Source: a virus
Length of the DNA stretch: 44,350 nucleotides
Virus record (IMG/VR): IMGVR_UViG_3300028800_000158
Location: 1-44,350 of that record
Reading direction: 5' to 3' (one strand)
Below the pieces are notes generated by a model. The model did not search any database, had not been told where the DNA came from, and worked only from the letters and a program-made list of their open reading frames with translations. The translations under genes and the position numbers were made by a program. Positions 7,977 through 44,317 of this stretch are shown one piece after another (positions within the stretch are counted from its first letter, which is position 1; every line of letters begins with the position of its first letter).

Positions 7977-8051
7977 TGGCGTCTGGTCTAAAGGCAAGAC
8001 GGAGCACTGTTAATGCTTACGATTCAGGTTCGAATCCTGAGATGCCAGCCA
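7977..8051 (+). tRNA. tRNA-Asn(GTT)
   Basis: Full cloverleaf. Acceptor TGGCGTC pairs with GATGCCA; the D-arm is GTCT...AGAC; the anticodon stem GAGCA/TGCTT carries loop CTGTTAA (anticodon GTT); the T-arm is TCAGG-TTCGAAT-CCTGA. The discriminator is G and the 3' CCA is encoded (8049-8051). Confidence 0.95.
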
Positions 8052-8052
8052 T

Positions 8053-8128
8053 CTTTCCTTCGTCTAACTGGATAGGGCATCGGGTTACGAACCCGAGAGT
8101 GCAGGTTCGACTCCTGTGGGGAAGACCA
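8053..8128 (+). tRNA. tRNA-Arg(ACG)
   Basis: Acceptor CTTTCCT pairs with GGGGAAG (two G-U pairs). The D-arm has loop AACTGGATA, the anticodon stem TCGGG/CCCGA has loop TTACGAA (anticodon ACG), and the T-arm is GCAGG-TTCGACT-CCTGT. The encoded CCA is at 8126-8128. It starts one base after the CCA of tRNA-Asn, so the two are probably processed from one transcript. Confidence 0.93.
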
Positions 8129-10672: not shown

Positions 10673-12727
10673 ATGCGTCTAGAAAAACTAAAAGAATTAT
10701 ACGAGACGTGTAAAGTTCTTCCGCACTACCAGCACAGGGATATGAATGACGGCGAGTTTCTGACCAGAGCTACGAAAAGCTTTCAGAGATTACCGAAGTC
10801 ACAGCAAACAAAGGCAGCAGAAAGTTGGGCCAAGAAACTCAGCAAAGAGTCAATAGCTGTTACACCAGATACAATAAACGAACTTATGCGATATAGGTTC
10901 ATGGCACAGACAAATCTATTCTTTCTCTGTCACTTACTAGAGCTATATGGTCAAACTACTGTAAATACACATGAGGAGATTTGCAATAAGTTTTTCGTAC
11001 AGAAAGACCCAACATTTTTGACATTCGATCATTTTGCAGACCAGTACACCGATTTGAAGCAACGCATGTTATTGGTACCCCGTGGCGGATTCAAATCTAG
11101 TATTGACATGGCGGATTGCATTCAATGGTTCATTTGTTTTCCCGCTATTACCATTGCTATTCTAACGGGTGTTTTACAATTGGCAAAAGACTTCGTGGGT
11201 GAAGTGAAACTACACTGCACTAAAACCGAAGCTGGAACAGATTCAAAAGGCAAATCGTTATACGATGTTCGTCAACTAATGGACAAAAAAACCGGAGAGT
11301 GGTCAGACAGTCTTTTTCAAGTACTATTCCCAGAACATTGTTTATCACCGTTAGAAGGCAACCAACTCGAATTTCAGACGCCCGCCGCTGAAGAGTCTAA
11401 AGAACCGACAGTTAGAGCGGCATCTATTGATCAGGCTTTGTCAGGCAGTCACTTTAATGTCCTAAAGCTTGATGACGTAATCACAAACGAGAACACAAAA
11501 ACAGAAGCTCGTATCAAAGACACGATCAAGCAAATTACCATCAACAACGGCTTGCTTAATCCCAACGGATTTTATGATGTTATCGGCACATGGTATGATG
11601 AACGTGATTACTACGGCGTCACAATTAAGAAGCTAGAGAGACGCGCCAAAGAGGAAGGCTTACTACAATCCATCACAGGATCAGTAGATAGCGGACGTTT
11701 CAATGCTGATTTAAGTTTTAAGATTTATCTTCGCGCTGCTTGGTGGCCTACAGAGGAGGCACTTAAGGCAGGTAAGATTGAAGAAGAAATGACTAAGAGC
11801 GATTGGGTATTATGGTTCCCCGAGCGCCTGAGTTATGAGTTTTTGATTAACAAGCAGAAAGATGACTCCGATTTGGATGACGATGAAGGAGACACCGGTT
11901 ACTTTGCGATTAAATATCTTAACAATCCGCGCAAAGTAAATCGCATCAAGTTTCCAAAAGAACTACTCATGCGACGTACAATTCCGCATACTCAATATCC
12001 ATCACAGGGAATAGTGGTTACTACTGTAGATACAGCTTACAGCACTAAGGCATGGGCTGATTATACAGTTATTCTAACTGCCCTGATCTTCGGAGGACGC
12101 TTCTACATTGTCAACATGGTTAGAGGGAGATTCAATGAATACGACTTGCCCAAAATCATCGCCAACACAGCAAACAAATGGAAACCTAAAAGAATTGCCA
12201 TTGAGGACTCTGTTGGAGTTAAGTGGATGGGTCGAGAACTTAGACGGGAAATGGACAATCTTAGAATTTCCATACCTGTCGAATTTGTATCCCTTGGACT
12301 CGGGTCTAAATTACGATCAAAACAGCTTAAAGCCAAGCCTGTCCTTCGTTTACTAGGCGATGAGCGCTTGTATTTCTTCAACTCCTGTGAAGGTCTTGAG
12401 GAAATTTATAACGAAATGACGCAGTTCACAGGAACAAGCGACGACAAGCATGATGATATTGTATCAGCTATATCACTACTGGTAGAACAATTTATTGGAT
12501 ACGCCGATGTAGATAGCCGCGTTAATTCATATCAGACTGATTTTGTGGCCGATCAAAAGGCAAAGGACAAACACGATCAAATATATTTCTTAGGGAAGTA
12601 CGCAAAGTTCAATGAACTTGGACCCATTGATGACAACCCTAATACACAATTTCAGGTTCAACAGGCGGCACAGCAGAGTATAGATACCACACCAGACGTT
12701 GACCCACTCGCTGATTTATTGCGATAG
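10673..12727 (+). CDS. Terminase large subunit
   Basis: A 684-residue DNA packaging motor and nuclease. The ATPase part has a Walker A-like PRGGFKSS (near residue 136) and a Walker B LKLDDVIT (near 263) with catalytic acidic residue. The C-terminal RNase H-fold nuclease shows TTVDTAYS (near 451), IAIEDSVGVKW (near 509) and a DDKHDDIVSA ending (near 590), the expected acidic triad. The protein docks on the portal and cuts the concatemer. CGGAGGGGT gives a good ribosome binding site. A 54-aa gene and a broken endonuclease separate it from the portal gene. Length and motif order are normal. Confidence 0.93.
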   Translation: MRLEKLKELYETCKVLPHYQHRDMNDGEFLTRATKSFQRLPKSQQTKAAESWAKKLSKESIAVTPDTINELMRYRFMAQTNLFFLCHLLELYGQTTVNTHEEICNKFFVQKDPTFLTFDHFADQYTDLKQRMLLVPRGGFKSSIDMADCIQWFICFPAITIAILTGVLQLAKDFVGEVKLHCTKTEAGTDSKGKSLYDVRQLMDKKTGEWSDSLFQVLFPEHCLSPLEGNQLEFQTPAAEESKEPTVRAASIDQALSGSHFNVLKLDDVITNENTKTEARIKDTIKQITINNGLLNPNGFYDVIGTWYDERDYYGVTIKKLERRAKEEGLLQSITGSVDSGRFNADLSFKIYLRAAWWPTEEALKAGKIEEEMTKSDWVLWFPERLSYEFLINKQKDDSDLDDDEGDTGYFAIKYLNNPRKVNRIKFPKELLMRRTIPHTQYPSQGIVVTTVDTAYSTKAWADYTVILTALIFGGRFYIVNMVRGRFNEYDLPKIIANTANKWKPKRIAIEDSVGVKWMGRELRREMDNLRISIPVEFVSLGLGSKLRSKQLKAKPVLRLLGDERLYFFNSCEGLEEIYNEMTQFTGTSDDKHDDIVSAISLLVEQFIGYADVDSRVNSYQTDFVADQKAKDKHDQIYFLGKYAKFNELGPIDDNPNTQFQVQQAAQQSIDTTPDVDPLADLLR

Positions 12728-13724: not shown

Positions 13725-15596
13725 AATGTGCAACGTTTTACTGTTGCCAAGGTTGTTAACGCAATCGTTCCTCAGTTATATAAGGGTCTATTCTACACTG
13801 ACCCGCCAATGGTATTACGTCCGCGTCCGGGCACATCGCAGAACACTATCGATGCCAAGACCGCACTGTTTTCAACTCTATTGGACGAATGTAATTTCAA
13901 AATGGAAACCAAGATAGGGCTTGAGCAAATGGCTCATCTTGGAACCGGTATTTGGAAATGGGGAATCAAATACAAAAAGATCATCACTAGAAAGAGAACG
14001 GCTACAGCTACTAAGCTCGAAGCCGGTCCTGAAGGATACAAAGCGACTGCAATGGTGCCCGAAGACAAGGCACCAATGATTGAAAGAAAGACTAGATACG
14101 CGCCTCGCCCGTACATTGAAAGCCGCTCCATTGATAGAGTCCTTGTGGACCCTCACACAATGTTCGGTGATATTCGTAGAGCAGATTGGGCCATTGACCA
14201 ACGGTTCATGGACTTCTATCAGTTCCAAGAACTGTTCAAAGGCATTGCTGCACTACCCGATGGACACCCTGATAAAAAGGGATGGGTCATTCCTAGTGAA
14301 ACAGAATTGAAAAGCTGGTTTCTACCTCCAACCGATGCTGGTACAGCCGGGGAGTCAACAACTCAACAAGCTGCATATATCAATGGTGTTGTACACCATG
14401 CAGAGGACATCAACATACAAGTTACCCCAGACGTTCTAATGAAGAAATTAGAAGTTTTGGAGTATTGGGATAAGAAGCGCAAAATTATTGTCGTCCAGCG
14501 TAAAAAGAAACTGTACGCTGGTGAAAATCCATTTGGCATTATCCCGTTCCTATCAGCTAATTGGTGGAATAGACCAAGAGCTTTCTATGGAATGGGGTTG
14601 GGCCTGATTGTCGGACAGAATCAGCGTGTAGATCAAGGAACAATCAACGCTATCCTGAAAATCCTGTCGTTTGGTGTGAACCCAATTTACTTGCGTAGAC
14701 GTGACTCGAACACGCCTCCGCAGATGATTCGCACCGGTCTTGGCAGAATTTTGTCGGTAGATGGTGAAATTGATAAGGCTTTTGGCCTCTTGGAATCACC
14801 CAAGGTTCCTTCCGATGTGTGGTCCGCGTTGGCTGAATCCGAGAAAGCTACAGAAAGTAGCTCTGGTGCCGATGCACAACTTGTGCAAGGCTCATCATCA
14901 GGTCCAAGATCATCGATGGGACGCACAGCAACAGGTGCGACTAATCTTGCAGGAGCAAGTGCTACACGTCTTGATGGCCCGCTTGATAATTTTATTGAGC
15001 AGGTATTCAAGCCTTGGCTTTACATCCTAGATATGTTAGTGTTCGAATACTTCTCGGATGCTGAGATTTACACAATTCTTGGCGATGAGTTGGGCAAGGA
15101 CTTTGAACTTGATCTACAATCATTCCACGATGGTGTTGTAGAGTTTGAAACCCTAGCCGGTGCGTCACTATCCGCTAAGAGAATCATGGCGCAATCTATG
15201 ACTCTCATTACTCAACTGTTTGAGACACCCGCGATCCAAGAGCAACTAGCGGACATCAATGAAGAGTATATTGACTTCAAAGAAATCATCAAAATGATGA
15301 TGGAAGCAAGCGAGTGGAAGAACATTCAGGACATTATTAAGCCTTTGACGCCCGCTATGAAGCAGAAGCGTCAAGCGCAATCACAAGCAGCACAGCAGCA
15401 ATCTAAACTTGCTACACAGCAAGCCGTAAGCGCACAGAATGCACAACAGAAGTCTAAGCTACAGGCCGAGTCAATCCAAGGACGTATTCAGGAGCGACTG
15501 GTAGTAGGAGCCGTTCTGAATAGTGCAAAAGGTGAGGCTAACGAAGGCCAACCTGATACATCAGGTTTAGGTGGCTCAGAAGATACAGTTGAATAA
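13725..15596 (+). CDS. Portal protein, exon 2
   Basis: The remaining 623 codons of the portal. It begins NVQRFTVAKVVNAIVPQLYKG and continues with LFYTDPPMVLRPRPG, a segment typical of podovirus-like portals. YIESRSIDRVLVDPHTMFGD and FLSANWWNRPRAFYGMGLG also fit the family. The C-terminus is a long Gln/Ala coiled-coil-like tail (QAQSQAAQQQSKLATQQAVS) that could form the portal barrel. As the ring at one capsid vertex it takes DNA from the terminase. GTG 13728 has no ribosome binding site at a proper distance, consistent with this being an exon and not a separate gene. Confidence 0.88.
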   Translation, partial: NVQRFTVAKVVNAIVPQLYKGLFYTDPPMVLRPRPGTSQNTIDAKTALFSTLLDECNFKMETKIGLEQMAHLGTGIWKWGIKYKKIITRKRTATATKLEAGPEGYKATAMVPEDKAPMIERKTRYAPRPYIESRSIDRVLVDPHTMFGDIRRADWAIDQRFMDFYQFQELFKGIAALPDGHPDKKGWVIPSETELKSWFLPPTDAGTAGESTTQQAAYINGVVHHAEDINIQVTPDVLMKKLEVLEYWDKKRKIIVVQRKKKLYAGENPFGIIPFLSANWWNRPRAFYGMGLGLIVGQNQRVDQGTINAILKILSFGVNPIYLRRRDSNTPPQMIRTGLGRILSVDGEIDKAFGLLESPKVPSDVWSALAESEKATESSSGADAQLVQGSSSGPRSSMGRTATGATNLAGASATRLDGPLDNFIEQVFKPWLYILDMLVFEYFSDAEIYTILGDELGKDFELDLQSFHDGVVEFETLAGASLSAKRIMAQSMTLITQLFETPAIQEQLADINEEYIDFKEIIKMMMEASEWKNIQDIIKPLTPAMKQKRQAQSQAAQQQSKLATQQAVSAQNAQQKSKLQAESIQGRIQERLVVGAVLNSAKGEANEGQPDTSGLGGSEDTVE

Positions 15597-16033: not shown

Positions 16034-16944
16034 GTGATACCCAAGTAGCAACACCAGTCGAACAGACATACACATACCAACCAACAGATGCAGAAAACCG
16101 CCCTATTGGTGGAAAACAGGTAATCAAGTACACCACACAAGAGGAGCTAGTATCCAAGATTCAAGAGCAGAATATTCTCCTGATTCGTAAGCTTCGTGAG
16201 CAGACAAAGAAGGTTCGCCTTGGCATTGAGGAAAGAGAAGACCTTGGAGAGAATCTAGAACATTTTGACGGGCCGGTTGAATTCAAACCACGTGAACTAA
16301 GCGTCGAAGAGAATTACGACATTGCGCGTAGACTGACTGATCCGACAACTTCATCAGCGGCAACCGATGAGTTATTGGAAGCACGTCTCGGCGCTCCATT
16401 GAATGTAATCGGATCAACTCTACAAAAAACACAGCAAGAAGTCATTACATTGCGTGCAAAGTTAGAGGCCAATTCATTCGTAGCTGAGAACCCGGATTAC
16501 TACAGGTGCCCTGAGAACTTTGAAGCTATCACATCATGGATGGTTCGTTATGAACTAGCCCCTGTGAAGGAGAACTTCCAGAAAGCCTACGACACACTAA
16601 AGGCGCAGGGTCTTCTTGTTGAAGGCGCGGCTCCCGTGCAGACAGCACCGGTTGTAGAAACTCCCGTTGTAACGGAGGCTCCAGCCGTAAACAATACGCA
16701 ACCTGCTCAAGTCTCTGTACCCGGCTTAGCTAGCGGATTGACCAACGAGGATGCTTCGAATGTTGGAACACCAGTTCCGCTAGGAAGCGATATTACATAT
16801 GTGCTCAACGGAAACACACTAACCGGTCTCGCTGCCATCGCAGCTATGCCGTCAGAGGAGTACAAATACCGTTTGACACATGACAGAGAGTTCTCAAAGA
16901 AAGTCGATCAATTGGAAGCCGCAGCTAGAAAGCCAAGGGGCTAA
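16030..16944 (+). CDS. Scaffold-like head assembly protein
   Basis: A 304-residue protein. The N-terminal half is charged and helical (EELVSKIQEQNILLIRKLRE, TLQKTQQEVITLRAKLEANS), fit for coiled coils, and is followed by a compact NPDYYRCPENFEAITSWMVR segment. A Val/Pro/Thr-rich linker (PVVETPVVTEAPAV) and a short C-terminal domain close it. Order after the portal and before the major capsid, together with coiled-coil content, is what scaffolding proteins show. I infer the role from this and not from a recognised family. One copy of the 13-bp dispersed motif lies within it. Confidence 0.65.
   Translation: MSDTQVATPVEQTYTYQPTDAENRPIGGKQVIKYTTQEELVSKIQEQNILLIRKLREQTKKVRLGIEEREDLGENLEHFDGPVEFKPRELSVEENYDIARRLTDPTTSSAATDELLEARLGAPLNVIGSTLQKTQQEVITLRAKLEANSFVAENPDYYRCPENFEAITSWMVRYELAPVKENFQKAYDTLKAQGLLVEGAAPVQTAPVVETPVVTEAPAVNNTQPAQVSVPGLASGLTNEDASNVGTPVPLGSDITYVLNGNTLTGLAAIAAMPSEEYKYRLTHDREFSKKVDQLEAAARKPRG
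16686..16698 (+). repeat. Dispersed motif CGTAAACAATACG, copy 2
   Basis: A perfect 13-mer inside the scaffold-like gene (codons for Ala-Val-Asn-Asn-Thr), about 260 bp upstream of the GNAT gene. Shares CGTAAACAATACGCA with the copy at 36967. Confidence 0.7.
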
Positions 16945-16945
16945 A

Positions 16946-17392
16946 ATGGTACGAGACTACAAAGAAGAGGACTTTGCTAGTATCCGATCTATTGACGAAT
17001 TATCTTTTGTTGATCCCGAACCCGAGTGGTTTCTTAAAAAAGCTATCGAGAAGGGTAAGGCATGGGTATTCGAGGAAGATGGTAAGATTCAAGGCTTTCT
17101 TGTCGGCAAGATCAAACACGACTCACCGTATGTCCACAACGTCGCGGTGAAGAAAGAATTTAGAAATAAGGGTATCGCAGCCGCGTTGTTCTCCAAATTT
17201 GAAGAGCATTACGGTGCAGCCCAGAAACCTGAAAACAAGATGTTTTGGCTTCAGGTGAATTGTAACAATCCCGCGCAAAAACTATACTTCGATTTGGGGT
17301 ATAGGATTTGTTCGGTGGATGAGAATTATTACGGCTCTGGCGAACATGCTCTTTGTATGTATAAATCAGCTAGACCGCTTGCATTACGGTAA
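16946..17392 (+). CDS. GNAT family N-acetyltransferase
   Basis: A 148-residue protein with the GNAT core: VHNVAVKKEFRNKGIAAALF carries the beta4 strand and the acetyl-CoA pyrophosphate loop (R-N-K-G-I-A), followed by a helix. NNPAQKLYFDLGYRIC is the conserved C-terminal motif B region. It would transfer an acetyl group from acetyl-CoA to an amine; the substrate is unknown. Located between scaffold-like and capsid genes, it may modify a virion protein, although many phages carry such enzymes without proof of role. ATG 16946 is one base after the previous stop. A longer upstream frame overlaps the scaffold-like gene and is not used. Confidence 0.87.
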   Translation: MVRDYKEEDFASIRSIDELSFVDPEPEWFLKKAIEKGKAWVFEEDGKIQGFLVGKIKHDSPYVHNVAVKKEFRNKGIAAALFSKFEEHYGAAQKPENKMFWLQVNCNNPAQKLYFDLGYRICSVDENYYGSGEHALCMYKSARPLALR

Positions 17393-17620: not shown

Positions 17621-18655
17621 ATGGCCGGTTATAGCCCATCTAGTAATAATCAATCAAATCTGCCTCAGTCAACGGTTCGCTACTACGACAAAAAGTTCCG
17701 TGAGAACCTGAAGGCACAGACACCGTTCGTTGCATGTTCGGAGCGTCTGGACCTACCTATGAAGTCTGGTAATCAATATGAACTTTTCATGTATGTTCCT
17801 TTGGCTGCTAATACAACGCAGACAACTGAAGGTACAGTTGGAAGTGGTATTGCTGTACAGGTTCTAACTACAACTGCAACAATCGGTGAATATGCAGATT
17901 ATGCGAACTTCTCAAGTCTATCTTTGGCTACAGCTATTGATAACACTGTTGAGAATGTAGCACGTGAGCTTGCATATCGTCTGGGCGAGTCCCTAAGCGG
18001 ACTTGTTCGTGCAACTGCTGACGGTGCAAACGCCGTTGACGCAAGCGTACTAACACAGCTTGGTGCAACATCAACCACAGCCTTTACAACCTTGAGCTTG
18101 AGCCAAATCCGTAACTCTGTACAGAGTCTAGCGGGTCGTTCAGTTCGTCCGTTTGACGAGGCTTCAAAGACTTTCTGCGGTGTAATTCACCCGTTCGCTC
18201 TTGGCGACGTTCTTGCTGACAACAGCAACAACGCACCAATCGACATCCTGAAGCACACGCCAGTGGGTCTAGCCCGCATGGAAGATTTAATTTCTGTTGA
18301 TCTGACAGAAATGATTGAACTGCCTTCAACCGGCGTTCGCTTCTTCCAGACAAACCAAGTCACAGCAACTACGAATTATAAGGGCGTAACCGGTCTAACA
18401 GCCCTACGTACTTATATCTTCGGACGTGACGGCATCTTCAGTATTAAGCTAGGTGCTCAAGGCGATACAGGCTTCGGTGACGGAGAGTGGCAGAACATCA
18501 AGTGTAACATCGTGCAAAATGCTGAGCCGACAGTCGCGGACCCCGAAGGGCTAATCCCCGGATGGACAAGCTATCGTGTTCACTTTACCACCAGCCTTGG
18601 ACCGGATACCACAATTAGGATACGCGAAATCGACGCGGCTTCAGCAATCAGCTAA
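17621..18655 (+). CDS. Major capsid protein, N4-gp56 type
   Basis: A 344-residue protein with the opening RYYDKKFRENLKAQTPFVAC and KSGNQYELFMYVPLAANTT, matching the N4-gp56 family of HK97-fold capsid proteins that I recognise. Further features are TTTATIGEYADYANFSSLSL, VCGVIHPFALGDV-like positions (FCGVIHPFALGDV) and a C-terminal GWTSYRVHFTTSLGPDTTI. It is the only family-level capsid candidate, it follows the portal and scaffold-like genes, and a hairpin terminator follows. AAAAGGAAAAC upstream is a fair ribosome binding site. Codon use appears even, as in highly expressed genes. Confidence 0.88.
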   Translation: MAGYSPSSNNQSNLPQSTVRYYDKKFRENLKAQTPFVACSERLDLPMKSGNQYELFMYVPLAANTTQTTEGTVGSGIAVQVLTTTATIGEYADYANFSSLSLATAIDNTVENVARELAYRLGESLSGLVRATADGANAVDASVLTQLGATSTTAFTTLSLSQIRNSVQSLAGRSVRPFDEASKTFCGVIHPFALGDVLADNSNNAPIDILKHTPVGLARMEDLISVDLTEMIELPSTGVRFFQTNQVTATTNYKGVTGLTALRTYIFGRDGIFSIKLGAQGDTGFGDGEWQNIKCNIVQNAEPTVADPEGLIPGWTSYRVHFTTSLGPDTTIRIREIDAASAIS

Positions 18656-18726: not shown

Positions 18727-19239
18727 ATGGGTTTACTAAATCAAGTATTTCAAGGCAATCCTAACATCCTTGGTGTAGTTGCAGCAGGGGGAGCACCAAA
18801 CTTCCCTAACCTTGCAATCGACACCGTAGATGGTACGATTTTTCTGAGTGCAGGTAACGGATGGGTGCCCCTATCGGGTGTAGCTCAGAAGGCTGTAGCT
18901 TCAGCACAGGTAGCGAACAACGCTAACGTGTTGACGTTTACGGCTCCCGTTGCGGGTCTGTACGAAGTTTCACTTTATGGAGTATCAACTAATACCCCAA
19001 CCGCAGCAACACTACCTGCTTTTACAGTAGTATACACCGACGCGGATTCAAACGCAGTAGTAACAGATACATTGGCATCAGTAGGCTCTGTAGGAGCAGC
19101 CGGTGTAGCCAGCCAAGGACGTTTCCTTGTTAATCTTAAAGCCGGTGGAACAGCAGTAGTTGCTACAACTAGTTACAATGCCGGAAGCGGTACGGCGCTT
19201 GCATACACCGCCAAGGCTCGCGTAAGCTATCGCGGCTAA
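18727..19239 (+). CDS. Small fibre or decoration protein
   Basis: A 170-residue protein. Its first 50 residues resemble the protein at 5608 (VFQGNPN, IDTVDGTIFLSAGNGWVPLS). The rest is a beta-rich domain (GLYEVSLYGVSTNTPTAATL, ALAYTAKARVSYRG) like small jelly-roll or C1q/TNF-like tips of phage fibres. It is directly downstream of the capsid gene with a strong AAGGAG. A head decoration or head-fibre role is likely, based on position and composition. Confidence 0.7.
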   Translation: MGLLNQVFQGNPNILGVVAAGGAPNFPNLAIDTVDGTIFLSAGNGWVPLSGVAQKAVASAQVANNANVLTFTAPVAGLYEVSLYGVSTNTPTAATLPAFTVVYTDADSNAVVTDTLASVGSVGAAGVASQGRFLVNLKAGGTAVVATTSYNAGSGTALAYTAKARVSYRG

Positions 19240-19263
19240 TCAAATCTAAGGAGAAAACACAAT

Positions 19264-20898
19264 ATGACTTTTATTAATGGTCAAACAACAGGTTTGGGCG
19301 TTGCCGCGCAGATTTTGGTACCCGGTAATAACGCACCTATCAGCACCAAGAGAGGTTACAACAATGTAACTCTATCTCTATCTGGTGCTGGTGGGTGGCC
19401 TACAACTTTTCAATTACAACCAGTCGTTGCCGATGTAGTGGGCACACCTTATTTACAAGGTGCGACGTTCACACTTTCAGCAGTAGCAGCTTCAACGCCG
19501 GGGTCATTTGCCCTGACAGCCGTAGCAGCATCTGTTGGCGGAACAGCAGCGTACTCCGGTACGTTTTCTAGCGGCGGATCAAATGCCTATGAGGGTTACA
19601 CTGTAACTGTCACCGGCTTCACTGGAGCCGCTGCTGTAAACAACGGTACTTTCCAAATCACAGCATCCAACACAACAACACTGACGCTGAACAATCCTAA
19701 TGCCGTTGCGGTTACCGCAGCCGGTACAGTAGCGTTCCTTCAAGGAACAGCCGTATACACGGGTGTAATCAATGGTGGTGCAGATAATGCATATGCCGGA
19801 CTTACTTTCGGAGTATCTGGATTTACAGCGGGCGTTCACAACGGTACGTTTATCGCTGTAGCTTCAACCAACACAACTATTACACTAGAGAATGCATCTG
19901 CGACAGGAGCAACCCAATCGGCTACTCTTACGTCACAAGAAGTACTTACCCCGGTTGCCAACCAACTAGGTGGTGCTGCAAAGTATGCATTACTAGGGAA
20001 CTCAGGTATCACAAACTCAGGAAGTTCTGTAATTGCTGGTGGAAATATCGGTTCTTCACCTACAGTTTCAATTACTGGTTTTCCTCCCGGTGTGCTAACG
20101 CCTCCTTCCGTAGTTGATAACGGGAACGCAGGACAGGCACAAACTGACCTAGCCGCAGCCATCACCTATTATCAAGGTTTGACACCGACCCTTTCTGGTC
20201 TAAGCACATTAAGCACAGAAGGTAACGGGTCTACCGCATCAACCTTTACTCCGGGTGTGTATGTCGGTGCAGCCGGTTTGACAATGGCTACAGGAATTAT
20301 TCTTGACGCACAAGGCAATCCAAACGCAACATTCGTGTTCGTAGCAGGGTCCACAATCAACCTAGCAAGCGGTCAGACTGTTGCTCTGGTAAATGGCGCA
20401 CAAGCAGCAAACGTAGTATTCGTAGCAGGAAGTTCATTTACAGCAGTAGCTACTTCAACAGTCAACGGAAACATTCTTGCTGTTGCAAGTATTACTCTTG
20501 GCGGTGGAACACTGAATGGTCGCGCACTAGCTAACACAGGTGCCGTGACTATTTCTACTGCTACCGCCGTCACTGCTCCGTTTCAAGCCGTAGACGTATT
20601 CGGAAACGAATTGACTTATGTCGCGTGGCCTTCAAGAACAGTGACCGGTCAGACGTACATTCCTTCTGGTACACCTACAGCGGTTGTTACGGTATCCGCA
20701 ACAGGGCTTCTTACAGCGGTTGCTCGTGGTGCAGTTGAAGTCGAGGTTTCATTCCCGGCCTTCAATAACGCAAGCGGACAAACTGGTGCAGAGCCTTCTG
20801 GAGCGGTGATCCCTAAGAATGTGTACCCAAACAACCCTAATGCGGGTCTACCAATGAACAAGATTTACACCAGTGTAAATGTTGAAGTCGTTGCTTAA
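19264..20898 (+). CDS. Virion protein with DUF3494 ice-binding-like domain
   Basis: A 544-residue protein. Residues ~94-226 hold two tandem repeats (G-TA-Y-G...NAY-G...V-GFT...NGTF...TT-TL-N). Residues ~237-436 match the DUF3494 (ice-binding-like) beta-solenoid: KYALLGNSGITNSGSSVIAG, then TVSITGFPPG, AQTDLAAAITYY, FTPGVYVGAAGLTMATGIIL, NATFVFVAGSTIN, VNGAQAANVVFVAGSS, VNGNILAVASITL and NGRALANTGAVTI. A BIG2-like Ig domain (VVTVSATGLLTAVARGAVEV) closes the protein. No signal peptide is present, so it is probably assembled on the virion and not secreted. DUF3494 proteins are adhesins or antifreeze proteins; here the fold may serve surface binding. Confidence 0.82.
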   Translation: MTFINGQTTGLGVAAQILVPGNNAPISTKRGYNNVTLSLSGAGGWPTTFQLQPVVADVVGTPYLQGATFTLSAVAASTPGSFALTAVAASVGGTAAYSGTFSSGGSNAYEGYTVTVTGFTGAAAVNNGTFQITASNTTTLTLNNPNAVAVTAAGTVAFLQGTAVYTGVINGGADNAYAGLTFGVSGFTAGVHNGTFIAVASTNTTITLENASATGATQSATLTSQEVLTPVANQLGGAAKYALLGNSGITNSGSSVIAGGNIGSSPTVSITGFPPGVLTPPSVVDNGNAGQAQTDLAAAITYYQGLTPTLSGLSTLSTEGNGSTASTFTPGVYVGAAGLTMATGIILDAQGNPNATFVFVAGSTINLASGQTVALVNGAQAANVVFVAGSSFTAVATSTVNGNILAVASITLGGGTLNGRALANTGAVTISTATAVTAPFQAVDVFGNELTYVAWPSRTVTGQTYIPSGTPTAVVTVSATGLLTAVARGAVEVEVSFPAFNNASGQTGAEPSGAVIPKNVYPNNPNAGLPMNKIYTSVNVEVVA

Positions 20899-20921
20899 AC
20901 AACAAAGAACAAAGAACGAAC

Positions 20922-20952
20922 AAAGAGGCTCTTTAATGCTAGGAGCCTCTTT
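20922..20952 (+). terminator. 10-bp hairpin, possible bidirectional terminator
   Basis: AAAGAGGCTC (20922-20931) pairs perfectly with GAGCCTCTTT (20943-20952) with an 11-nt loop. The T's are within the stem (CTTT) and A's flank the left arm, as in short intrinsic terminators. It closes the capsid-fibre unit. Confidence 0.7.
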
Positions 20953-20961
20953 GGGCACCAA

Positions 20962-21283: not shown

Positions 21284-21805
21284 ATGGCACTAAATGTAGC
21301 ATTGCAAGTTTATCGGGGAGTACGGGCGAACCTTGCTGCACTCGCCTCAACAGGAAAGGCAGGAACATTAGCTTGGACTACAGACAGCAATGAACTATTT
21401 GTAGATTCAGGATCAGGCACAGGAATTGGAACAGCATGGTTACCAACGGGTAACAGCATTTCTTACTTTACAGCCGCAAATCAGGCTGCAATGGTCGCAC
21501 TAGCTGCTAAAGTTGGTGACCTAGCAGACCGTACTGATTTAAAGCAAAACTTCATTTTGACAGCGTATCCGGCAAGTACGGTAGGCAATTGGTCGGCTCT
21601 TTCGCCCGATGCAAGTGTTACTGGTATTCAAGGACTTGTTTCAGGTACAGCGCATGAATGGGTCAGTTACATAGATTCATCTGGTGTACAGCATTTGACG
21701 CAACCAGCGTTTGCTGACATTTCCGGCCAACTTTCACAAGCACAGTTGCCAACAACAATTGGTGCAGGGTCGGCACTAACTTCCGTAGATTGTGGTACTT
21801 TCTAA
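21284..21805 (+). CDS. Fibre N-terminal-type protein (173 aa)
   Basis: A 173-residue protein. The first 60 residues (VALQVYRGVRANLAALASTG, LAWTTDSNELFVDSGSGT) follow the LQ-x-x-RG-x-x-AN-L...TD-x-x-LF/Y pattern of phage tail-fibre and tropism-protein N-termini. The next gene has the same pattern, so both likely attach to the same virion site. The C-terminal part is small and polar (ALSPDASVTGIQGLVSGTAH). GAGGTAGAAAC precedes ATG 21284. The stop overlaps the next start (TAATG). Confidence 0.7.
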   Translation: MALNVALQVYRGVRANLAALASTGKAGTLAWTTDSNELFVDSGSGTGIGTAWLPTGNSISYFTAANQAAMVALAAKVGDLADRTDLKQNFILTAYPASTVGNWSALSPDASVTGIQGLVSGTAHEWVSYIDSSGVQHLTQPAFADISGQLSQAQLPTTIGAGSALTSVDCGTF

Positions 21806-22404
21806 TGAGAAACGTACAGTTGCAAATTATCCGTGGTGTATTAGCAAATATGCCAAGTCTCGGCGACGGAGAGTTCTACTTTGCAACCGATAAATGCCAA
21901 CTTTATATCGGGTTCGGCGGAAACAATCTTCCAATCGGAGGCACTATGTCAGTTCAAATTGCAGACAAAACGAATACTTCGCAGCTACTAGCTGTTCAGT
22001 CTGACGGTAGTATATTATCTAATACAGGGGTTAACAAATCACTTGTTTTAAAAACAGGCTCTCTTGTAACTACATCAGTAACCGCAAACCAGAGTATTCT
22101 GTCTTATACAGTCACGGCGGCAAAAACATTCTATCTAACTTACTTTGATTTACAGGGAAGACTCACTACCGCATCAGCTACTGCTTCGAATTTGGGAACT
22201 GTTAGTGTTTCCATTGGTGGAGTAATCGTTTATCAGGCAGGGTTTAACAACCCAACTACAAGCGATTGCGGGTCACAGTCTGTTAGAATTTACACAAACG
22301 CGGCTATTCCAATTGCAGCAGGTACAGTTATTCTTATTGAAGTGACACCCGCTGCTGTAACTTCAATGACGTGGTTAGGAAATCTAGGTGGTTACGAGCA
22401 GTAA
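21805..22404 (+). CDS. Fibre or tropism-type protein (199 aa)
   Basis: A 199-residue protein: N-terminal RNVQLQIIRGVLANMPSLGD with GEFYFATDKCQLYIG, a well-known opening of phage fibre proteins (attachment domain), then a beta-rich C-terminal head (QSILSYTVTAAKTFYLTYFD, SVRIYTNAAIPIAAGTVILI). The frame could be extended 15 nt upstream, but ATG 21805 overlaps the previous stop and is the natural coupled start. It probably binds a receptor or forms a short fibre; the exact receptor cannot be predicted. Confidence 0.72.
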   Translation: MRNVQLQIIRGVLANMPSLGDGEFYFATDKCQLYIGFGGNNLPIGGTMSVQIADKTNTSQLLAVQSDGSILSNTGVNKSLVLKTGSLVTTSVTANQSILSYTVTAAKTFYLTYFDLQGRLTTASATASNLGTVSVSIGGVIVYQAGFNNPTTSDCGSQSVRIYTNAAIPIAAGTVILIEVTPAAVTSMTWLGNLGGYEQ

Positions 22405-37713: not shown

Positions 37714-40578
37714 ATGACGCAACCTACAACACCATCACAATATCAAGGTACATCGAATCCACCTAACGGTGGGGATGTAACAGACGTGTCTACTCCTGAG
37801 TCAAATGATCAGACGGTGGTAGACGCTACTGGACCTAATACCCCACCCTCTCAGCCACAGACTCCTGTCGCAAATATTCCTACACCGGGTGGAGCAGCCC
37901 CTACACAGGGTCCGCAGACTCCGGGACAGCCCCAAGGTCCACCGGGACAACCCGGAGGCTTACAAGGGAGCTTACCAAAGCCTCCACCACCAAGTCCTGC
38001 TCAAATACAGAATGCCGTACAACAGGCGAAAAAGACTCAAGCTGTAGGTAAAGCCAGTATATTTCATGATGTAGCAGAGACACTAGCGGGTGGTCCTCAG
38101 TACAACTACACAGTGGATGCATATGGTAATATGCAGAAGACTAAGGTTCCGGTGAGCGGTGCTCATCTCGCCCTAGCAATCGCAATGGAAGCGTTGAGCG
38201 GGGCCGCTACCGGCTTTGCTAACGGCCAAGGTCCGGGAGGAGCCGCACGCGCTGCCGGTGCGTCATTTAAGCAGGGTCAAGAACAGATTCAAGCAGCCGA
38301 TGCACTTAAGCAGAAACAAGCAAGTGATGACTTTGCACGTAAGGCCCAGACTACCGAACTTAACATGCGTATGTACTCAACTGCGCTTCAAGCCGGTAAG
38401 ATGGATTTTGAATTGAATACTGAAGTAGATAAACAGTGGGAACCTACTTTAACCAATTTACAACTAAAGGCACCCGGATTTATTGAAGGGCCTATTACGG
38501 CGCAAGAAGCCATTAAAATAGGTAATGTAACCCGCGATAGTTTGATTCCGGCAAAAACTGTTCCTCGCCTTGATGGTAGTGGTAATCAAGTTGAAATTAA
38601 TGGAATAAAACAATGGAATCATTTATTTTATATGGTCAAGCCCGGAGTTAAGCTATCCAATCTATTTACTCCTCAAGATTTAGAGGACGCGAAGAAATGG
38701 GGGTTTTCTTGGGGTAATAATGATCGTATTATCGATTCACCTATAGACTTAAATCTGTATATGAATCTTAAATCTCAGTTAGTACAGTTAAACGTGGCTG
38801 ATAAAACATTTCAACAGGAATTTGATAAGTATGATTCGTCAAAAGGTGGTGGATACAAAATCGGCAATGATGTCCCGGTTACCGGTAAATTTGATGATGT
38901 TATCAATAGCGAGTCCAAAGATGCTGGTATTGATCCACGCTTTACAAGAGCCTTAATCGGTGAAGAAAGTAGTGGCAATCCTACAGCTACAAGTCCTACC
39001 GGTGTAAAAGGCATTATGCAGGTTACACTGGCTACGGGCAAGAAGTACGGTATCAATAATGACGATGACCGTGATGACCCGAATAAGAGCATTCATGCCG
39101 GGACTCATTACTTCTCAGACCTGTTGAATCAGTTCAAGGACCCTAAGCTAGCCATTGCCGCATACTACAGCGGCCCACAAGCTATTAAGGATGGAAAGAT
39201 TGTAGACACTAGTGATCATACCGCAGCAGATACGCAGCGTTATGTAAGTCAGGTTACCGGTCGTTTAGGACTAACAGCCCAAGACTCAACTGAAGGGGGC
39301 AAGCCCGAGCGTATGTCATTGGATCAGTGGACTGCAAAATATCCGCAGACCCGTAACGATATTGAAGCATTCATGGGTGCAGTAAATTCACCAAACAATC
39401 CGAATGAAACCGGACTATATGCACCGGCCTTGAATCATCTAGCACAGACGAATCCACAGGCAGCGGGTAATATTGCTGCGTTTCTGAATCAAGGTGACCC
39501 CGATTTCATCAAGAACCACGATGATGATTTGGTTACACAGGCTGAAGCACGCAAGGCACAAGTACAAACAGACGCCTTGGATCAGCGAAATGAGAATAAG
39601 CAAGCTCAAGATGAACGTCTAGCAACGATTACCCAGAGCTATTTGAAACCACCTACGGATAATTTTACACTTGATCCGACGATTGTATCTATGGACTCAA
39701 ATGATGCTCAGACGGCATTAAAAAACGCTGGTGTACGAATTCCTACAAACTTCGGTGCTCTATGGCAGGTAGCCCACTATAAAGCTCCTGCAAGTATCCT
39801 ACCAGCTAGAACATGGCAGAAAGGTGCTCCGAATGAAATGGATGCTCAGACCGGACTTTCATATATTCAGCAGTTCGTGAATCCGGGATATGATCAGAAG
39901 AATTATCAGACGGCTCAAAAAATTCGTCTTGAAAATGCTTCCGGCAATTCGAAGAACGGAGCATCTATTCAAAACGCTGGAGTCGCGGCTCAGCACTTAA
40001 CGCTATTGAAACAAGCTGGTGATGCACTGGCACAGGGCAATATCCCTATAGCTAATAGTGCGCTTAACCAGTTAAGCAAGGCACTTGGTCAACCCGGTCT
40101 TACGACTTATGAAGCTTTGCTTCCTATCGTATCACAGGAAGTTGGTAAAGTTGCCGCTGGCGGAACTGTTCCATACGAACAAGCGGTCAGTAAAGCAGAA
40201 AGTGCATTTGATCAGAAGCAATCTCCGCAACAGAGAGAGGCCGCTATCAACGGCGTGATTGGTCTTATGTATGGACGTATTAAAGCTATTGATGAGAATA
40301 CATATGACAACCTACAGGAGCATTTGAATAACGTGCCTTCGGAAGCGACTGACTTATTCCAAAAAGCTGGCTTTGATACCCCGTGGATACCACAGCCTAA
40401 ACCGCCAGTACAAGGTGCTGTACCGGGTTACCAAAACGGTAAATTGGTCGGATGGCAATTACCTAACGGTCAAAAGGTTCCTGCAAACTGGAAACCACAG
40501 CCGTCACAATCACAACAGCCACAACAGCCACAGGGCGGCGACCTAAACGGAATCTCGCCTCAACAACCACAACAATAG
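37714..40578 (+). CDS. Internal virion protein with lytic transglycosylase domain
   Basis: A 954-residue protein. A Pro/Gln/Thr-rich N-terminus (residues 1-100) precedes helices. Residues ~395-500 form an SLT lysozyme-like domain: GIDPRFTRALIGEESSGNPT contains the catalytic Glu (GEESSGNP), then GVKGIMQVTLATGKKYGI, IHAGTHYFSDLLNQF and LAIAAYYSGPQAI. The long C-terminal half is helical with a Gln/Pro tail. It would cut peptidoglycan glycan strands locally while DNA enters the cell, like T7 gp16. AAGGATAAAAC precedes the ATG. The next gene carries a second, different SLT domain at its C-terminus. Confidence 0.87.
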   Translation: MTQPTTPSQYQGTSNPPNGGDVTDVSTPESNDQTVVDATGPNTPPSQPQTPVANIPTPGGAAPTQGPQTPGQPQGPPGQPGGLQGSLPKPPPPSPAQIQNAVQQAKKTQAVGKASIFHDVAETLAGGPQYNYTVDAYGNMQKTKVPVSGAHLALAIAMEALSGAATGFANGQGPGGAARAAGASFKQGQEQIQAADALKQKQASDDFARKAQTTELNMRMYSTALQAGKMDFELNTEVDKQWEPTLTNLQLKAPGFIEGPITAQEAIKIGNVTRDSLIPAKTVPRLDGSGNQVEINGIKQWNHLFYMVKPGVKLSNLFTPQDLEDAKKWGFSWGNNDRIIDSPIDLNLYMNLKSQLVQLNVADKTFQQEFDKYDSSKGGGYKIGNDVPVTGKFDDVINSESKDAGIDPRFTRALIGEESSGNPTATSPTGVKGIMQVTLATGKKYGINNDDDRDDPNKSIHAGTHYFSDLLNQFKDPKLAIAAYYSGPQAIKDGKIVDTSDHTAADTQRYVSQVTGRLGLTAQDSTEGGKPERMSLDQWTAKYPQTRNDIEAFMGAVNSPNNPNETGLYAPALNHLAQTNPQAAGNIAAFLNQGDPDFIKNHDDDLVTQAEARKAQVQTDALDQRNENKQAQDERLATITQSYLKPPTDNFTLDPTIVSMDSNDAQTALKNAGVRIPTNFGALWQVAHYKAPASILPARTWQKGAPNEMDAQTGLSYIQQFVNPGYDQKNYQTAQKIRLENASGNSKNGASIQNAGVAAQHLTLLKQAGDALAQGNIPIANSALNQLSKALGQPGLTTYEALLPIVSQEVGKVAAGGTVPYEQAVSKAESAFDQKQSPQQREAAINGVIGLMYGRIKAIDENTYDNLQEHLNNVPSEATDLFQKAGFDTPWIPQPKPPVQGAVPGYQNGKLVGWQLPNGQKVPANWKPQPSQSQQPQQPQGGDLNGISPQQPQQ

Positions 40579-40586
40579 AGGGTTAA

Positions 40587-43500
40587 ATGGATAACCAGAA
40601 TCCACAAAGTACAGACTTGAACAGCCCGGATATCAAATGGGGCGCTCAGCCACAGAACGCGCCCGATTTGAATAGTCCTAATATTCAATGGGGAAAACCC
40701 GGCATGGCAGCGCCTAATGAACCTGCTACCGCTCCTGCAAAGCCCGACCTTATGCAGGGTGTAAAAGACATTAGCGGAGTTGCAGCAGGTATTGGAGAAG
40801 GTTTATCAGGTACACTAGCCGGGGTAACTGATCTTGCTCATAAAATTCCCCTCTCGCCTTTGGGACCGCTGGCACTTGCTGATAAATTAGCCGGTGGAAA
40901 AATAAGCAGTACTCTACACGGTCTTGCGAGTGGTAGCGGAGAAAACGGTGCTCCAACAAAACCAGAAGAGTTTGGACAGGACGTTGAAACCATTGGGGAA
41001 TTTCTACTTACCGATGCAGCTTTGAAGGGACTGTCAGTTGCCGATAAGCTAACGCAAGTTTCCAAAGTAATGAAGTATATTGAGAAATCACCAAAACTTG
41101 CTCAAACACTTCGTCTTGGAATTAATGTTGGTAAGGCTGGTATTGAGTTAGGTCCAGAGGAACGCGCTATACTTCAGAAGTATCCTGTACTTGCCCGTTT
41201 AGCCGGTGTCGGAATGGACGCTATTCGTCACGGCACGATTCAAGGTGCTCAGACATTAGCGAAAACTGACGGTGATATAGAAGAAGCCGCAAAGAGCGGC
41301 GGTACTATGGCCTTGGGATCAGCATTTATCGGTGCGCCGTTAGGTATCGCTGGTGGATTGCTCGACAAAGTAGGACAGGCAGCGGATACTGTTAATGACG
41401 TTCGTACTGGTTTACAAGGCAACGCGCCTACACAGGCCGATGTAGAAGGACAGTTGAAGCAGACAACTGAGAATGCAGTAGCGCCACAAATCAACGCGGC
41501 TCAGCAAGCTCAACAAGAGGCAGAAGAAAGAATTGCAGGAGCAGCATCAGTGCCAGAATCTCTTGCAGCTAACGCACCAACTAACGAAGCCATTACCTCA
41601 TCTACTCAGAAAGCTGTAAAAGCAGCCCATACTAACTTGATGAATTCGTATGGTGTGGGATTAGACTCACTAAAGAATGTAGCACAAGGTCAGACTCTTA
41701 ACTATGCAGATAGTCCTCTACAGAAGGCTGCACAATCTCTGCTTGACAAAGGTAGCAATGAGACAAAACCGCTAGATGCCGCGTTCGATGTAAACAGGCC
41801 GGGTTCAGAAAAAGCCAATCATATGCTTAGTCTGTTGAATGATCCTTACGCAGATGAAAATGAAGAGAGCATAGCAGACGCCAAGAAGTTGTCTACGGAT
41901 GGGGCCAAAGTACCCGCCTCTATTAAGACACTAGAAACACATCCGGTTAAGCTGGATATGCAAGAGCTTGTGGATAGACGCAAGAAGGTTGGTGAGTTAC
42001 TTCGCAATACAGGATGGCAGACAGACGAACAACGTGCCGATAGAAACATCTACAAGACTCTACTTCAGGGCACAGATGATTCTATCCAACAACTTGTTGA
42101 GAAGTCCGGCAATCCCGATGCGATTCAGACTCTTCAAAAAATGAACAACGACTATCGCACCGGTATTAGACGCTTCGATAATAACGATGTTCAGGCGTTG
42201 TTACGCGGAGATGCTAATGATGTCGCAAAGAGATTAATGGGCGGCGGAACAAGTGTCAACGACATCAATACAGTACGCGACACTATTGGTTCCCCTGCAT
42301 TCAAGCAGCTAGCAGATTCATCCATACAGCGTATGGCAGCAGATGCAATTGATAAGACAACGGGCCAATTTAGCTTTGATGCATTTTTCAAGAATTGGAA
42401 TCGTATTCCGTCAGACGTTCGCACGGCCATGTTCCAAGACTCAATGAAAGCAGGGTCTTTACAAAACGCCATTATGCAGGTCCAAAAGACAAATGCATCC
42501 GGCGTGATCCCGGAATCTCTTGCCCAGATTAAAGCAGCAACAGATACAGTATCAGACATCCTTGGTAATGGAAGCATTGATTCGTTGCTAAAAGACCCAG
42601 AGCGCGTGCAGAATCTTGCACAGCTTGTGGGACCAGAGGCCATGTCTGATCTAGGCAAGACGGTTCTACAGAATCAACTACGCGAGGCAAGCACAGACGG
42701 AACAGGTAACATCAAGAACGTCAATACCGATAAGTTTTTGAAATTCGTAGCATCGCTTAAGGATTCACCAGAAGTGGTTGATGCGCTGTTTAGACCTACC
42801 CCTGAGACAGCCGCAGCATATGACAAACTGCTAGCTAGTATACATAATGTGAGCCGCGTCAAGGAAATGGTAAAACTAGGCATAATTACTCCTACGATTG
42901 GTGCAGCAATTGGGGGTGCTATCGGGCACACCGGATTTTCATTAGTACTTGGTGCAGCAGCAACAGAAGCAGCCGGTGGATCAGTATCATTTGCGCGTGA
43001 TATGTTGGATCGCATTGCTAACAGTCCGCAGACTTGGAATACGTTGAAGTTCTTGGACACAGCAGCTAAGAGTAAAATAGCCGGTGGTATTAGCAAACTT
43101 GGTAGATATGCAGCCGGTAAGACTGCCAGAGCAGTAGGTCCATACCTTAAGAATATTTATAGTCAGACCGGAAGCTCTCTTGGCGGTACAACACCAAATT
43201 CTCCTGTCACACCTAGTAGTAATCAGAGCAACAGTTTTTTTGAGTCAGCCGGGGCCTCAACGGAACCCGGCGCACTCGTGATGCAGCTACCAAAAGAAAT
43301 TCAAACATTGGTAGATAAGTATGCAAACAAATACTCTGTGCCTACGAATCTTGCCCGTGCTGTGATCTTCCACGAATCAAGTGGTAATCCAAACGCGACC
43401 GGTAAGACTACATCAAAAGGTCAAGCTAAAGGTCTTGGACAGTTGTTGCCACACACTGCTGAAGAACTTGGAGTAACCGATCCATTCGATCCCGACCAGA

Positions 43501-43751
43501 ACTTAAACGGGTCTTTGAAGTATCTAAGTCGCCTATACAAGAAATACGGACATGATCCGCTACTTGCATATGCAGCTTATACATCAGGACCAAATAGAGT
43601 GCAGCCGGGAGAATCTATTCAAAGTGTCATAAAGAAGTTACCGGCAGAGGGTCAAGCTGGTGTCAAACGAGTGGCACATCTTATGGGAATCGATATTAAC
43701 CCTCCTAAACCCGCGCCCAAACGCGGCTACGGAGTAAGTGGTAGCTGGTAG
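40587..43751 (+). CDS. Large internal virion protein with C-terminal transglycosylase domain
   Basis: A 1054-residue protein. The N-terminus repeats NSPDIKWG / LNSPNIQWG (residues ~12-36), then Gly-rich hydrophobic stretches (TLAGVTDLAHKIPLSPLGPL, GSAFIGAPLGIAGGLL) and a long helical body. Near residue 755-780 there is a hydrophobic segment (GIITPTIGAAIGGAIGHTGF). The C-terminal SLT domain begins near 912 (QTLVDKYANKYSVPTNLARA), with catalytic Glu in FHESSGNPNATG, then KGLGQLLPHTAEELGV and LLAYAAYTSGPNRV. Two transglycosylase domains in adjacent ejection proteins is unusual. It may span the cell envelope during ejection. Confidence 0.87.
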   Translation: MDNQNPQSTDLNSPDIKWGAQPQNAPDLNSPNIQWGKPGMAAPNEPATAPAKPDLMQGVKDISGVAAGIGEGLSGTLAGVTDLAHKIPLSPLGPLALADKLAGGKISSTLHGLASGSGENGAPTKPEEFGQDVETIGEFLLTDAALKGLSVADKLTQVSKVMKYIEKSPKLAQTLRLGINVGKAGIELGPEERAILQKYPVLARLAGVGMDAIRHGTIQGAQTLAKTDGDIEEAAKSGGTMALGSAFIGAPLGIAGGLLDKVGQAADTVNDVRTGLQGNAPTQADVEGQLKQTTENAVAPQINAAQQAQQEAEERIAGAASVPESLAANAPTNEAITSSTQKAVKAAHTNLMNSYGVGLDSLKNVAQGQTLNYADSPLQKAAQSLLDKGSNETKPLDAAFDVNRPGSEKANHMLSLLNDPYADENEESIADAKKLSTDGAKVPASIKTLETHPVKLDMQELVDRRKKVGELLRNTGWQTDEQRADRNIYKTLLQGTDDSIQQLVEKSGNPDAIQTLQKMNNDYRTGIRRFDNNDVQALLRGDANDVAKRLMGGGTSVNDINTVRDTIGSPAFKQLADSSIQRMAADAIDKTTGQFSFDAFFKNWNRIPSDVRTAMFQDSMKAGSLQNAIMQVQKTNASGVIPESLAQIKAATDTVSDILGNGSIDSLLKDPERVQNLAQLVGPEAMSDLGKTVLQNQLREASTDGTGNIKNVNTDKFLKFVASLKDSPEVVDALFRPTPETAAAYDKLLASIHNVSRVKEMVKLGIITPTIGAAIGGAIGHTGFSLVLGAAATEAAGGSVSFARDMLDRIANSPQTWNTLKFLDTAAKSKIAGGISKLGRYAAGKTARAVGPYLKNIYSQTGSSLGGTTPNSPVTPSSNQSNSFFESAGASTEPGALVMQLPKEIQTLVDKYANKYSVPTNLARAVIFHESSGNPNATGKTTSKGQAKGLGQLLPHTAEELGVTDPFDPDQNLNGSLKYLSRLYKKYGHDPLLAYAAYTSGPNRVQPGESIQSVIKKLPAEGQAGVKRVAHLMGIDINPPKPAPKRGYGVSGSW

Positions 43752-43759
43752 GGACTTGC

Positions 43760-44317
43760 ATGTATGTATACTTATTAACAAACAAATTGAATGGAAAATA
43801 CTATGTAGGAAAAACTAAAAAGAAAGACTTACAGAAGTATTTTACATTTAAGAAGTGGTGTGCTAAGAAAGGCGGTAATTACCATCGTATGCCTGTTATT
43901 GCGGCTATTGCAAAATACGGATGGGATAGTTTTACTGTCGATGTACTTAGCATTGTTGATACCGAAGAACAAGTTAATGATCTAGAATGTCTTTGGATTG
44001 TTCTTTTAAATTCTAGAAACCCAGACATAGGGTACAACATTGCCATTGGTGGTGGAAGGGTTTGTGCTCCATTATCTGAGGCAACTAAGGATAAGATCAG
44101 CGCTGCTAATAAAGGCCGAAAACCAAAAGGCTACATACGCACAGATTTGCATAGACAACAACTTCGTGATAGAATGAAGGGGAATAATATCGGCACTAAA
44201 TTTACATCTGAGACGGCACGACTAGCAATGATAAATGAAACCCCTGAGAATAAGACAAAAAGAATTGCAGGAATTCAAGCAGCTTGGGATCGAAAACGCG
44301 GTATAACTGGAGGGTAA
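43760..44317 (+). CDS. GIY-YIG homing endonuclease
   Basis: A 185-residue protein. The N-terminal nuclease has VYLLTNKLNGKYYVGKT (family pattern Y-x(10-11)-YVG), a catalytic Arg candidate at HRMPVIAAIAKYG, and Glu in VNDLECLWIVLLNS. A GYNIAIGGGRVC junction leads to a DNA-binding tail of NUMOD3-type helices (LSEATKDKISAANKGRKP, TSETARLAMIN). It is intact and related to the decayed copy at 12901. The start follows the ejection gene by 8 nt with weak ribosome binding. It may be free-standing or at the edge of an element that continues outside the window. Confidence 0.87.
   Translation: MYVYLLTNKLNGKYYVGKTKKKDLQKYFTFKKWCAKKGGNYHRMPVIAAIAKYGWDSFTVDVLSIVDTEEQVNDLECLWIVLLNSRNPDIGYNIAIGGGRVCAPLSEATKDKISAANKGRKPKGYIRTDLHRQQLRDRMKGNNIGTKFTSETARLAMINETPENKTKRIAGIQAAWDRKRGITGG

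Follow-up and report, generated by a model that had tools for sequence, protein, structure and literature searches.

The DUF3494 domain is the antifreeze fold of polar microbes, and ice-binding proteins are known as products of cells, most of them secreted. Does such a domain, encoded by a phage near its major capsid gene, belong to the virus particle, and does it bind ice there? We addressed this question in the window, namely the whole of the IMG/VR viral record IMGVR_UViG_3300028800_000158 (44,350 bases), which is a single metagenomic record. A first-pass annotation of this DNA had read the domain as part of a virion protein that may bind ice. The gene and the parts of its product are as follows.

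19248 to 19253, + strand: Shine-Dalgarno sequence AAGGAG, 10 bases upstream of the ATG (from the sequence)
19264 to 20898, + strand: 544-residue scaffold protein with an inserted DUF3494 domain, the central finding
19264 to 19488, + strand: N-terminal part of the scaffold, a putative anchor (residues 1-75, TTGLGVAA...), kept in Tunturi_3 gp7 and other capsid-adjacent homologues
19540 to 19740, + strand: tandem repeat 1 (residues 93-159)
19741 to 19941, + strand: tandem repeat 2 (residues 160-226), sharing 48% identity with repeat 1
19993 to 20565, + strand: DUF3494 (PF11999) ice-binding-like domain (residues 244-434), from profile and model; ordered in the model over residues 230-440 approximately
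20011 to 20550, + strand: region encoding the threonine ladder of the putative ice-binding B face (T250, T271, N366, T393, T411, T429), from alignment to AnpIBP (PMC7277481)
20602 to 20895, + strand: C-terminal scaffold part with a weak likeness to BIG2 (PF02368, residues 473-495, under cut-off)

The reading frame is uninterrupted over all 544 residues. The Pfam search gave a PF11999 match (E = 8.8e-37) that scored 127.2 bits, where the cut-off is 28.7, and spanned positions 2-206 of the 208 in the model, and a six-frame search of the 44,350-base record found a single PF11999 match (E = 1.1e-39). The domain therefore follows the DUF3494 pattern over its full length, as the first-pass annotation had claimed, and the boundaries given there (19970-20575) were correct to within a few codons. 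By phmmer against the PDB, the best match among solved structures was EfcIBP (6eio, E = 6.4e-25), followed by AnpIBP (7bwx, E = 2.1e-17). In the AlphaFold model, pLDDT exceeded 90 for residues 230-440 approximately, and the remaining chain was poorly modelled. The well-modelled part is predicted to form the right-handed beta-solenoid with a helix alongside that defines the IBP-1 fold. A Foldseek search of the PDB returned 31 significant matches, every one a DUF3494 ice-binding protein, with none significant after them (TM scores by target length, 0.88 for 7bwy and 0.81 for 6eio). Thus, both the profile match and the beta-solenoid, on which the annotation had made its claim depend, were found. 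Because the profile, the PDB sequence matches, the AlphaFold model and Foldseek point to the same family, the observation is right: the window protein carries a complete DUF3494 domain. Its likeness to AnpIBP (7bwx and 7bwy) and EfcIBP takes in the profile, the beta-solenoid with a long helix and a threonine-rich B face.

Outside the domain, the reported fusion to tandem repeats was borne out, since two repeats of about 67 residues each lie N-terminal to it. The BIG2-like domain that had also been described survives only in part: a PF02368 signal is present in the window protein (16.8 bits) and in the same region of the homologue L064 (15.2 bits), and both scores are below the cut-off of 22.8. 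A heuristic test found no signal peptide on the 544-residue protein, in agreement with the annotation. Past the stop codon by about 24 bases, at 20922-20952, there is a perfect 10-base inverted repeat, AAAGAGGCTC...GAGCCTCTTT; despite this repeat, a terminator scan called no intrinsic terminator in 20900-20960.

The genes that identify the phage and surround the scaffold gene are the following.

10673 to 12727, + strand: terminase large subunit (PHROGs), 56% identical to that of Tunturi_3
13728 to 15596, + strand: portal protein (PHROGs), 66% identical to that of Tunturi_3
16880 to 17392: GNAT acetyltransferase (E = 1.1e-12), between the portal and capsid genes, a place kept in Tunturi_3
17621 to 18655, + strand: major capsid protein (PHROG major head protein, E = 2.8e-17), 88% identical to the major head protein of Tunturi_3
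18727 to 19239, + strand: 170-residue protein between the capsid gene and the scaffold gene, kept in part of the Tunturi_3-like phages, with a weak, sub-threshold PPC-like match

Among named phages, the closest is Tunturiibacter phage Tunturi_3 (PP885686), a podovirus from Finnish tundra soil (PMC11924767). The order terminase, portal, two small genes, acetyltransferase, capsid and scaffold is common to the window and Tunturi_3. By its capsid, portal and terminase sequences and this gene order, the window phage is a member of the Tunturi_3-like podovirus group, and the relationship to a Tunturiibacter phage makes an acidobacterial host likely. A family A DNA polymerase and an SU10-type adaptor are also encoded in the window. 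The annotation had placed the DUF3494 gene next to the capsid gene; the position is indeed capsid-adjacent, but one gene (18727-19239) stands between, because the capsid gene lies at 17621-18655.

What kind of protein carries the domain? Tunturi_3 gp7, annotated as a tail fiber protein (PP885686), has the same place after the capsid gene. Its N- and C-terminal parts and its two repeats align with those of the window protein; however, gp7 has 312 residues instead of 544 and does not contain DUF3494. Judged by this alignment, Tunturi_3 gp7 is a natural empty site for the domain. A survey of 80 capsid-gene relatives found the same scaffold a short way downstream of the capsid gene, mostly with 160-310 residues and without DUF3494; its hallmarks are the N-terminal TTGLGVAA... 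and a C-terminal KIYA-V-V-V. Among 47 distinct contigs that span the capsid-adjacent slot of Tunturi_3-like phages, five have DUF3494 in it. In L098, L113, L127 and L134, a plain scaffold copy and a DUF3494-bearing copy stand side by side. Thus, the scaffold is a conserved capsid-adjacent protein of Tunturi_3-like phages, into which DUF3494 has been inserted repeatedly.

The scaffold resembles T4 Hoc in its setting. Hoc is an accessory protein with a capsid-binding part and variable displayed domains, and some phages have two versions of it (PMC10385173). The scaffold likewise lies beside the major capsid gene, with accessory domains that vary between relatives. In contrast, searches of the PDB and PHROGs found no homology to a known capsid-binding domain. 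The scaffold alone, as modelled for L064 (pLDDT 83), had no PDB fold match at E 0.001 and no match in PHROGs, which gave no ground for identifying it as a known decoration protein. Therefore, attachment of the scaffold to the capsid is suggested by position only, and the Hoc head fibre and Hoc-like proteins, with no detectable fold relation to it, are a working likeness only if the virion-display reading is correct. A term search of the main text of PMC11924767 found no virion proteomics for Tunturi_3, and a virion role is as conditional for gp7 as for the window protein. Nevertheless, synteny, conservation of the scaffold with or without the domain, and dozens of phage relatives that lack secretion signals together strongly suggest a virion role for the DUF3494-bearing protein.

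A scan of IMG/VR found 61 viral loci with DUF3494 relatives, 38-84% identical to the window domain. Scanning 84,980 genomes of bacteria and archaea returned a best relative with 47% identity; such relatives are present in ordinary soil bacteria, for example Streptomyces. We constructed a tree of 53 viral and 60 bacterial DUF3494 domains. In this tree, 47 viral domains, including that of the window, form a virus-only clade on a long stem (SH-aLRT 99). The proteins that contain the domains of this clade are of many unrelated kinds and range from 329 to 2083 residues in length. The carriers of a Tunturi_3-type capsid are not one group within the viral clade, since a single origin was rejected (AU p = 9.5e-13). 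For example, the window domain is 75-82% identical to domains on contigs with no capsid-gene relative in the fetched flanks, and only 51-59% identical to the domains of capsid relatives such as L021, L041 and L050. From the AU result it follows that the module was acquired or swapped several times; the DUF3494 module has moved repeatedly. It is also under purifying selection, with dN/dS of 0.06-0.11 for six pairs (between the window and L002, synonymous changes have reached saturation). A signal-peptide-like start, as expected of secreted microbial ice-binding proteins, was found by a simple heuristic in 0 of 50 viral ORFs vs 84 of 106 bacterial ORFs. Known DUF3494 proteins are mostly secreted and cellular; in contrast, the window protein has no signal peptide, and its domain is a member of a virus-only clade, inserted into a phage protein encoded near the capsid gene.

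Two further observations concern the viral domains. An 824-residue phage protein (L032:7428-9899, the same in L033, L034, L035 and L054) has two DUF3494 domains from different parts of the viral clade. In L057, L058, L059, L060, L061 and L062, the DUF3494 domain lies outside the main viral clade and its threonine ladder is largely intact; on this account, further transfers from cells to viruses are likely.

Does the domain still bind ice? The fold alone is no proof, because DUF3494 occurs in ordinary soil bacteria and PF11999 has also been reported from ice-free environments (PMC12337378). Therefore, the residues of the putative ice-binding face carry the argument. For AnpIBP, the B-face strands of the ice-binding site have been listed, and S153Y and T156Y cut the activity to 17% (PMC7277481). 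The numbering in that paper is the chain index minus 6; with this offset, the phmmer alignment places the functional S153 and T156 on S390 and T393 of the window protein. Among the 47 domains of the viral clade, S390 is kept in 46 (the remaining one has threonine) and T393 is also kept in 46. We assigned the B and C faces from the AnpIBP alignment and the secondary structure of the model, and so found the flat Thr/Ser-rich face that the annotation had suggested looking for, as a conserved, threonine-rich B face. Its rows in the window domain are S-G-i-T, A-S-i-T, S-S-f-T, S-T-i-N, T-(G)-A-v-T and A-G-l-T, and the threonine column reads TTNTTT (T250, T271, N366, T393, T411 and T429). By sequence, the window domain thus has the T/S-A/G-x-T/N motif of functional ice-binding DUF3494 proteins. 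Threonine, serine or asparagine occupies all six ladder places in 34 of 47 viral vs 41 of 115 bacterial domains. The outward B-face positions of the viral clade are T, S, A, G or N in 95% of cases, and in the b2 row about half of the clade has aspartate in place of threonine. The mean entropy is 0.82 bits for the outward B face vs 1.39 for the outward C face (one-sided Mann-Whitney p = 0.016, a modest value that ignores kinship). This is the pattern that ice would produce: it fits a constant, flat ligand, and fits a variable host polymer less well. Thus, the conserved threonine-rich B face favours ice binding by the domain, and the earlier interpretation of a virion protein that binds ice is partly supported.

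We propose the following explanation as the most likely one. The product of 19264-20898 would be an accessory protein on the virion surface, with the capsid as its probable point of attachment. Its conserved N- and C-terminal parts may hold it on the particle, so that the middle would serve as an exchangeable display slot, which in the window phage contains the two small tandem repeats and the whole DUF3494 beta-solenoid. With many copies on each particle, the protein might then display the flat threonine/serine B face outward and adsorb to ice. Adsorption by a single domain, probably weak, would become strong through multivalency, and virions would consequently attach to ice in freezing soil. 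They would concentrate at ice-water interfaces, where hosts and liquid water also gather, and would stay in the liquid veins where hosts remain, with less damage from ice recrystallisation. For this full chain, an interchangeable virion-surface module that still binds ice, in which we infer both the virion location and the ice binding, we consider the chances evenly balanced. The broader claim, that tailed phages of freezing soil evolved a dedicated, horizontally exchanged virion ice-binding module that many lineages recruited independently, is put forward tentatively. More modestly, given the close sequence relatives in dozens of uncultured phages, some phage particles may stick to ice.

An unlikely but serious alternative is that the protein is a virion adhesin with another ligand. 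The flat face would bind a repetitive polymer, such as host capsule, exopolysaccharide, cellulose or a peat polymer, and keep the phage near its hosts, like the Ig-like domains of other phages. Phage adhesion domains, such as those of T4 Hoc (PMC10385173), are typically swapped as modules in fibre-like proteins beside the capsid gene, and the close bacterial relatives of the domain inhabit ordinary soils. However, a face for a variable polymer is expected to diversify, whereas the B face keeps its threonine ladder and varies less than the other exposed face, and the residues that AnpIBP requires to bind ice are retained. The domain could also be a structural spacer or stabiliser: a stiff, protease-resistant rod without any ligand that reinforces or lengthens a decoration protein. 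We regard this as improbable. With tandem repeats and an Ig-like part as its neighbours, and with homologues that do without it, the domain does behave like one more bead in a string, but a rod does not need near-invariant exposed B-face residues in domains that have otherwise diverged widely, and one particular fold would not be expected in so many unrelated architectures. Quite improbable, too, is a role outside the virion, in which the protein would be an auxiliary gene product made in infection and released on lysis as a cryoprotectant for the host. Such a role has been proposed for three Arctic vOTUs, whose PF11999 genes are read as host cryoprotection in the relevant portion of PMC11515562. 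The complete lack of signal-peptide-like starts among the 50 viral ORFs speaks against it. So does the fusion to a scaffold that stays next to the capsid gene in phages with no DUF3494 in it, and so do fusions of up to 2083 residues with other phage protein parts. Finally, an assembly artefact, either a chimeric gene or a phage contig with host sequence attached, could be suspected since the window is a single metagenomic record; it was rejected, because L002/L124 from another metagenome has the same arrangement (domain 84%, capsid 89% and N-terminal part 58% identical), the base composition is even across the junction and the frame is open throughout.

How new would a virion-displayed ice-binding module be? 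A tblastn search of 50,697 GenBank phage records found no DUF3494 domain, and the sole match was the scaffold of Tunturi_3. An apparent DUF3494 in Tunturi_3 gp7 was discarded as the spurious match of a profile that included gp7 itself; the in-house DUF3494 profile was built without gp7. DUF3494 had no match in PHROGs, and a literature search found no paper that combines DUF3494 and phage. Among the predicted viral structures of BFVD, only three Hyperionvirus proteins matched significantly. These are viral proteins with the same fold; however, Hyperionvirus is a giant virus and not a tailed phage, and the structural agreement is weaker (TM by target length 0.28-0.70). The three Arctic genes, from vOTUs of the surface microlayer (PMC11515562, 2024), are also PF11999 genes in viral contigs, as in the window; the portion of that paper on these genes describes no virion context, scaffold or clade. 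Thus, the first-pass statement that DUF3494 proteins are known from cells and mostly secreted is correct for most of the family, but must be extended to these viral cases, which were already annotated. Because DUF3494 was found neither in the GenBank phage records nor in PHROGs, viral precedents are few and the Hoc analogue has no detectable homology, we class the domain as a member of the DUF3494 family whose setting, probably virion-associated, is new. If our proposal is true, virion-displayed ice binding would be a new physical route for viruses to persist in and move through frozen soil: particles would partition on to ice, and could survive or meet hosts during freeze-thaw. The virus-only clade would then be a source of many new candidate ice-binding sequences, which are absent from current phage annotation. 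Tunturi_3, a cultured phage with an empty scaffold, and the carrier phages are a natural pair for comparison.

Other features of these phages were also observed. The capsid gene of the Tunturi_3-like relatives L111, L112, L124, L135, L139 and L142 is interrupted by inserts of about 30 to 1,000 bases (for example, L111:7913-8195). The inserts sit at different codons, and matching sequence resumes after each. They look like introns; no Rfam family matched those of L111, L124 or L135. In the L139 and L142 contigs, one capsid-gene insert contains a 208-residue ORF. In the window, the ORF at 21790-22404 has an N-terminus weakly like the N-terminal domain of the major tropism determinant (PF18454, E = 0.0046, under cut-off). 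Two consecutive large proteins, encoded at 37714-40578 (954 residues) and 40587-43751 (1054 residues), each contain an SLT transglycosylase domain, differently placed, and may be ejection-protein-like. A homing-endonuclease-like ORF (PHROG 314, E = 3.9e-29) lies at 43760-44317, at the right end of the record, and adjacent tRNA genes for Asn(gtt) and Arg(acg) are present at 7977-8128.
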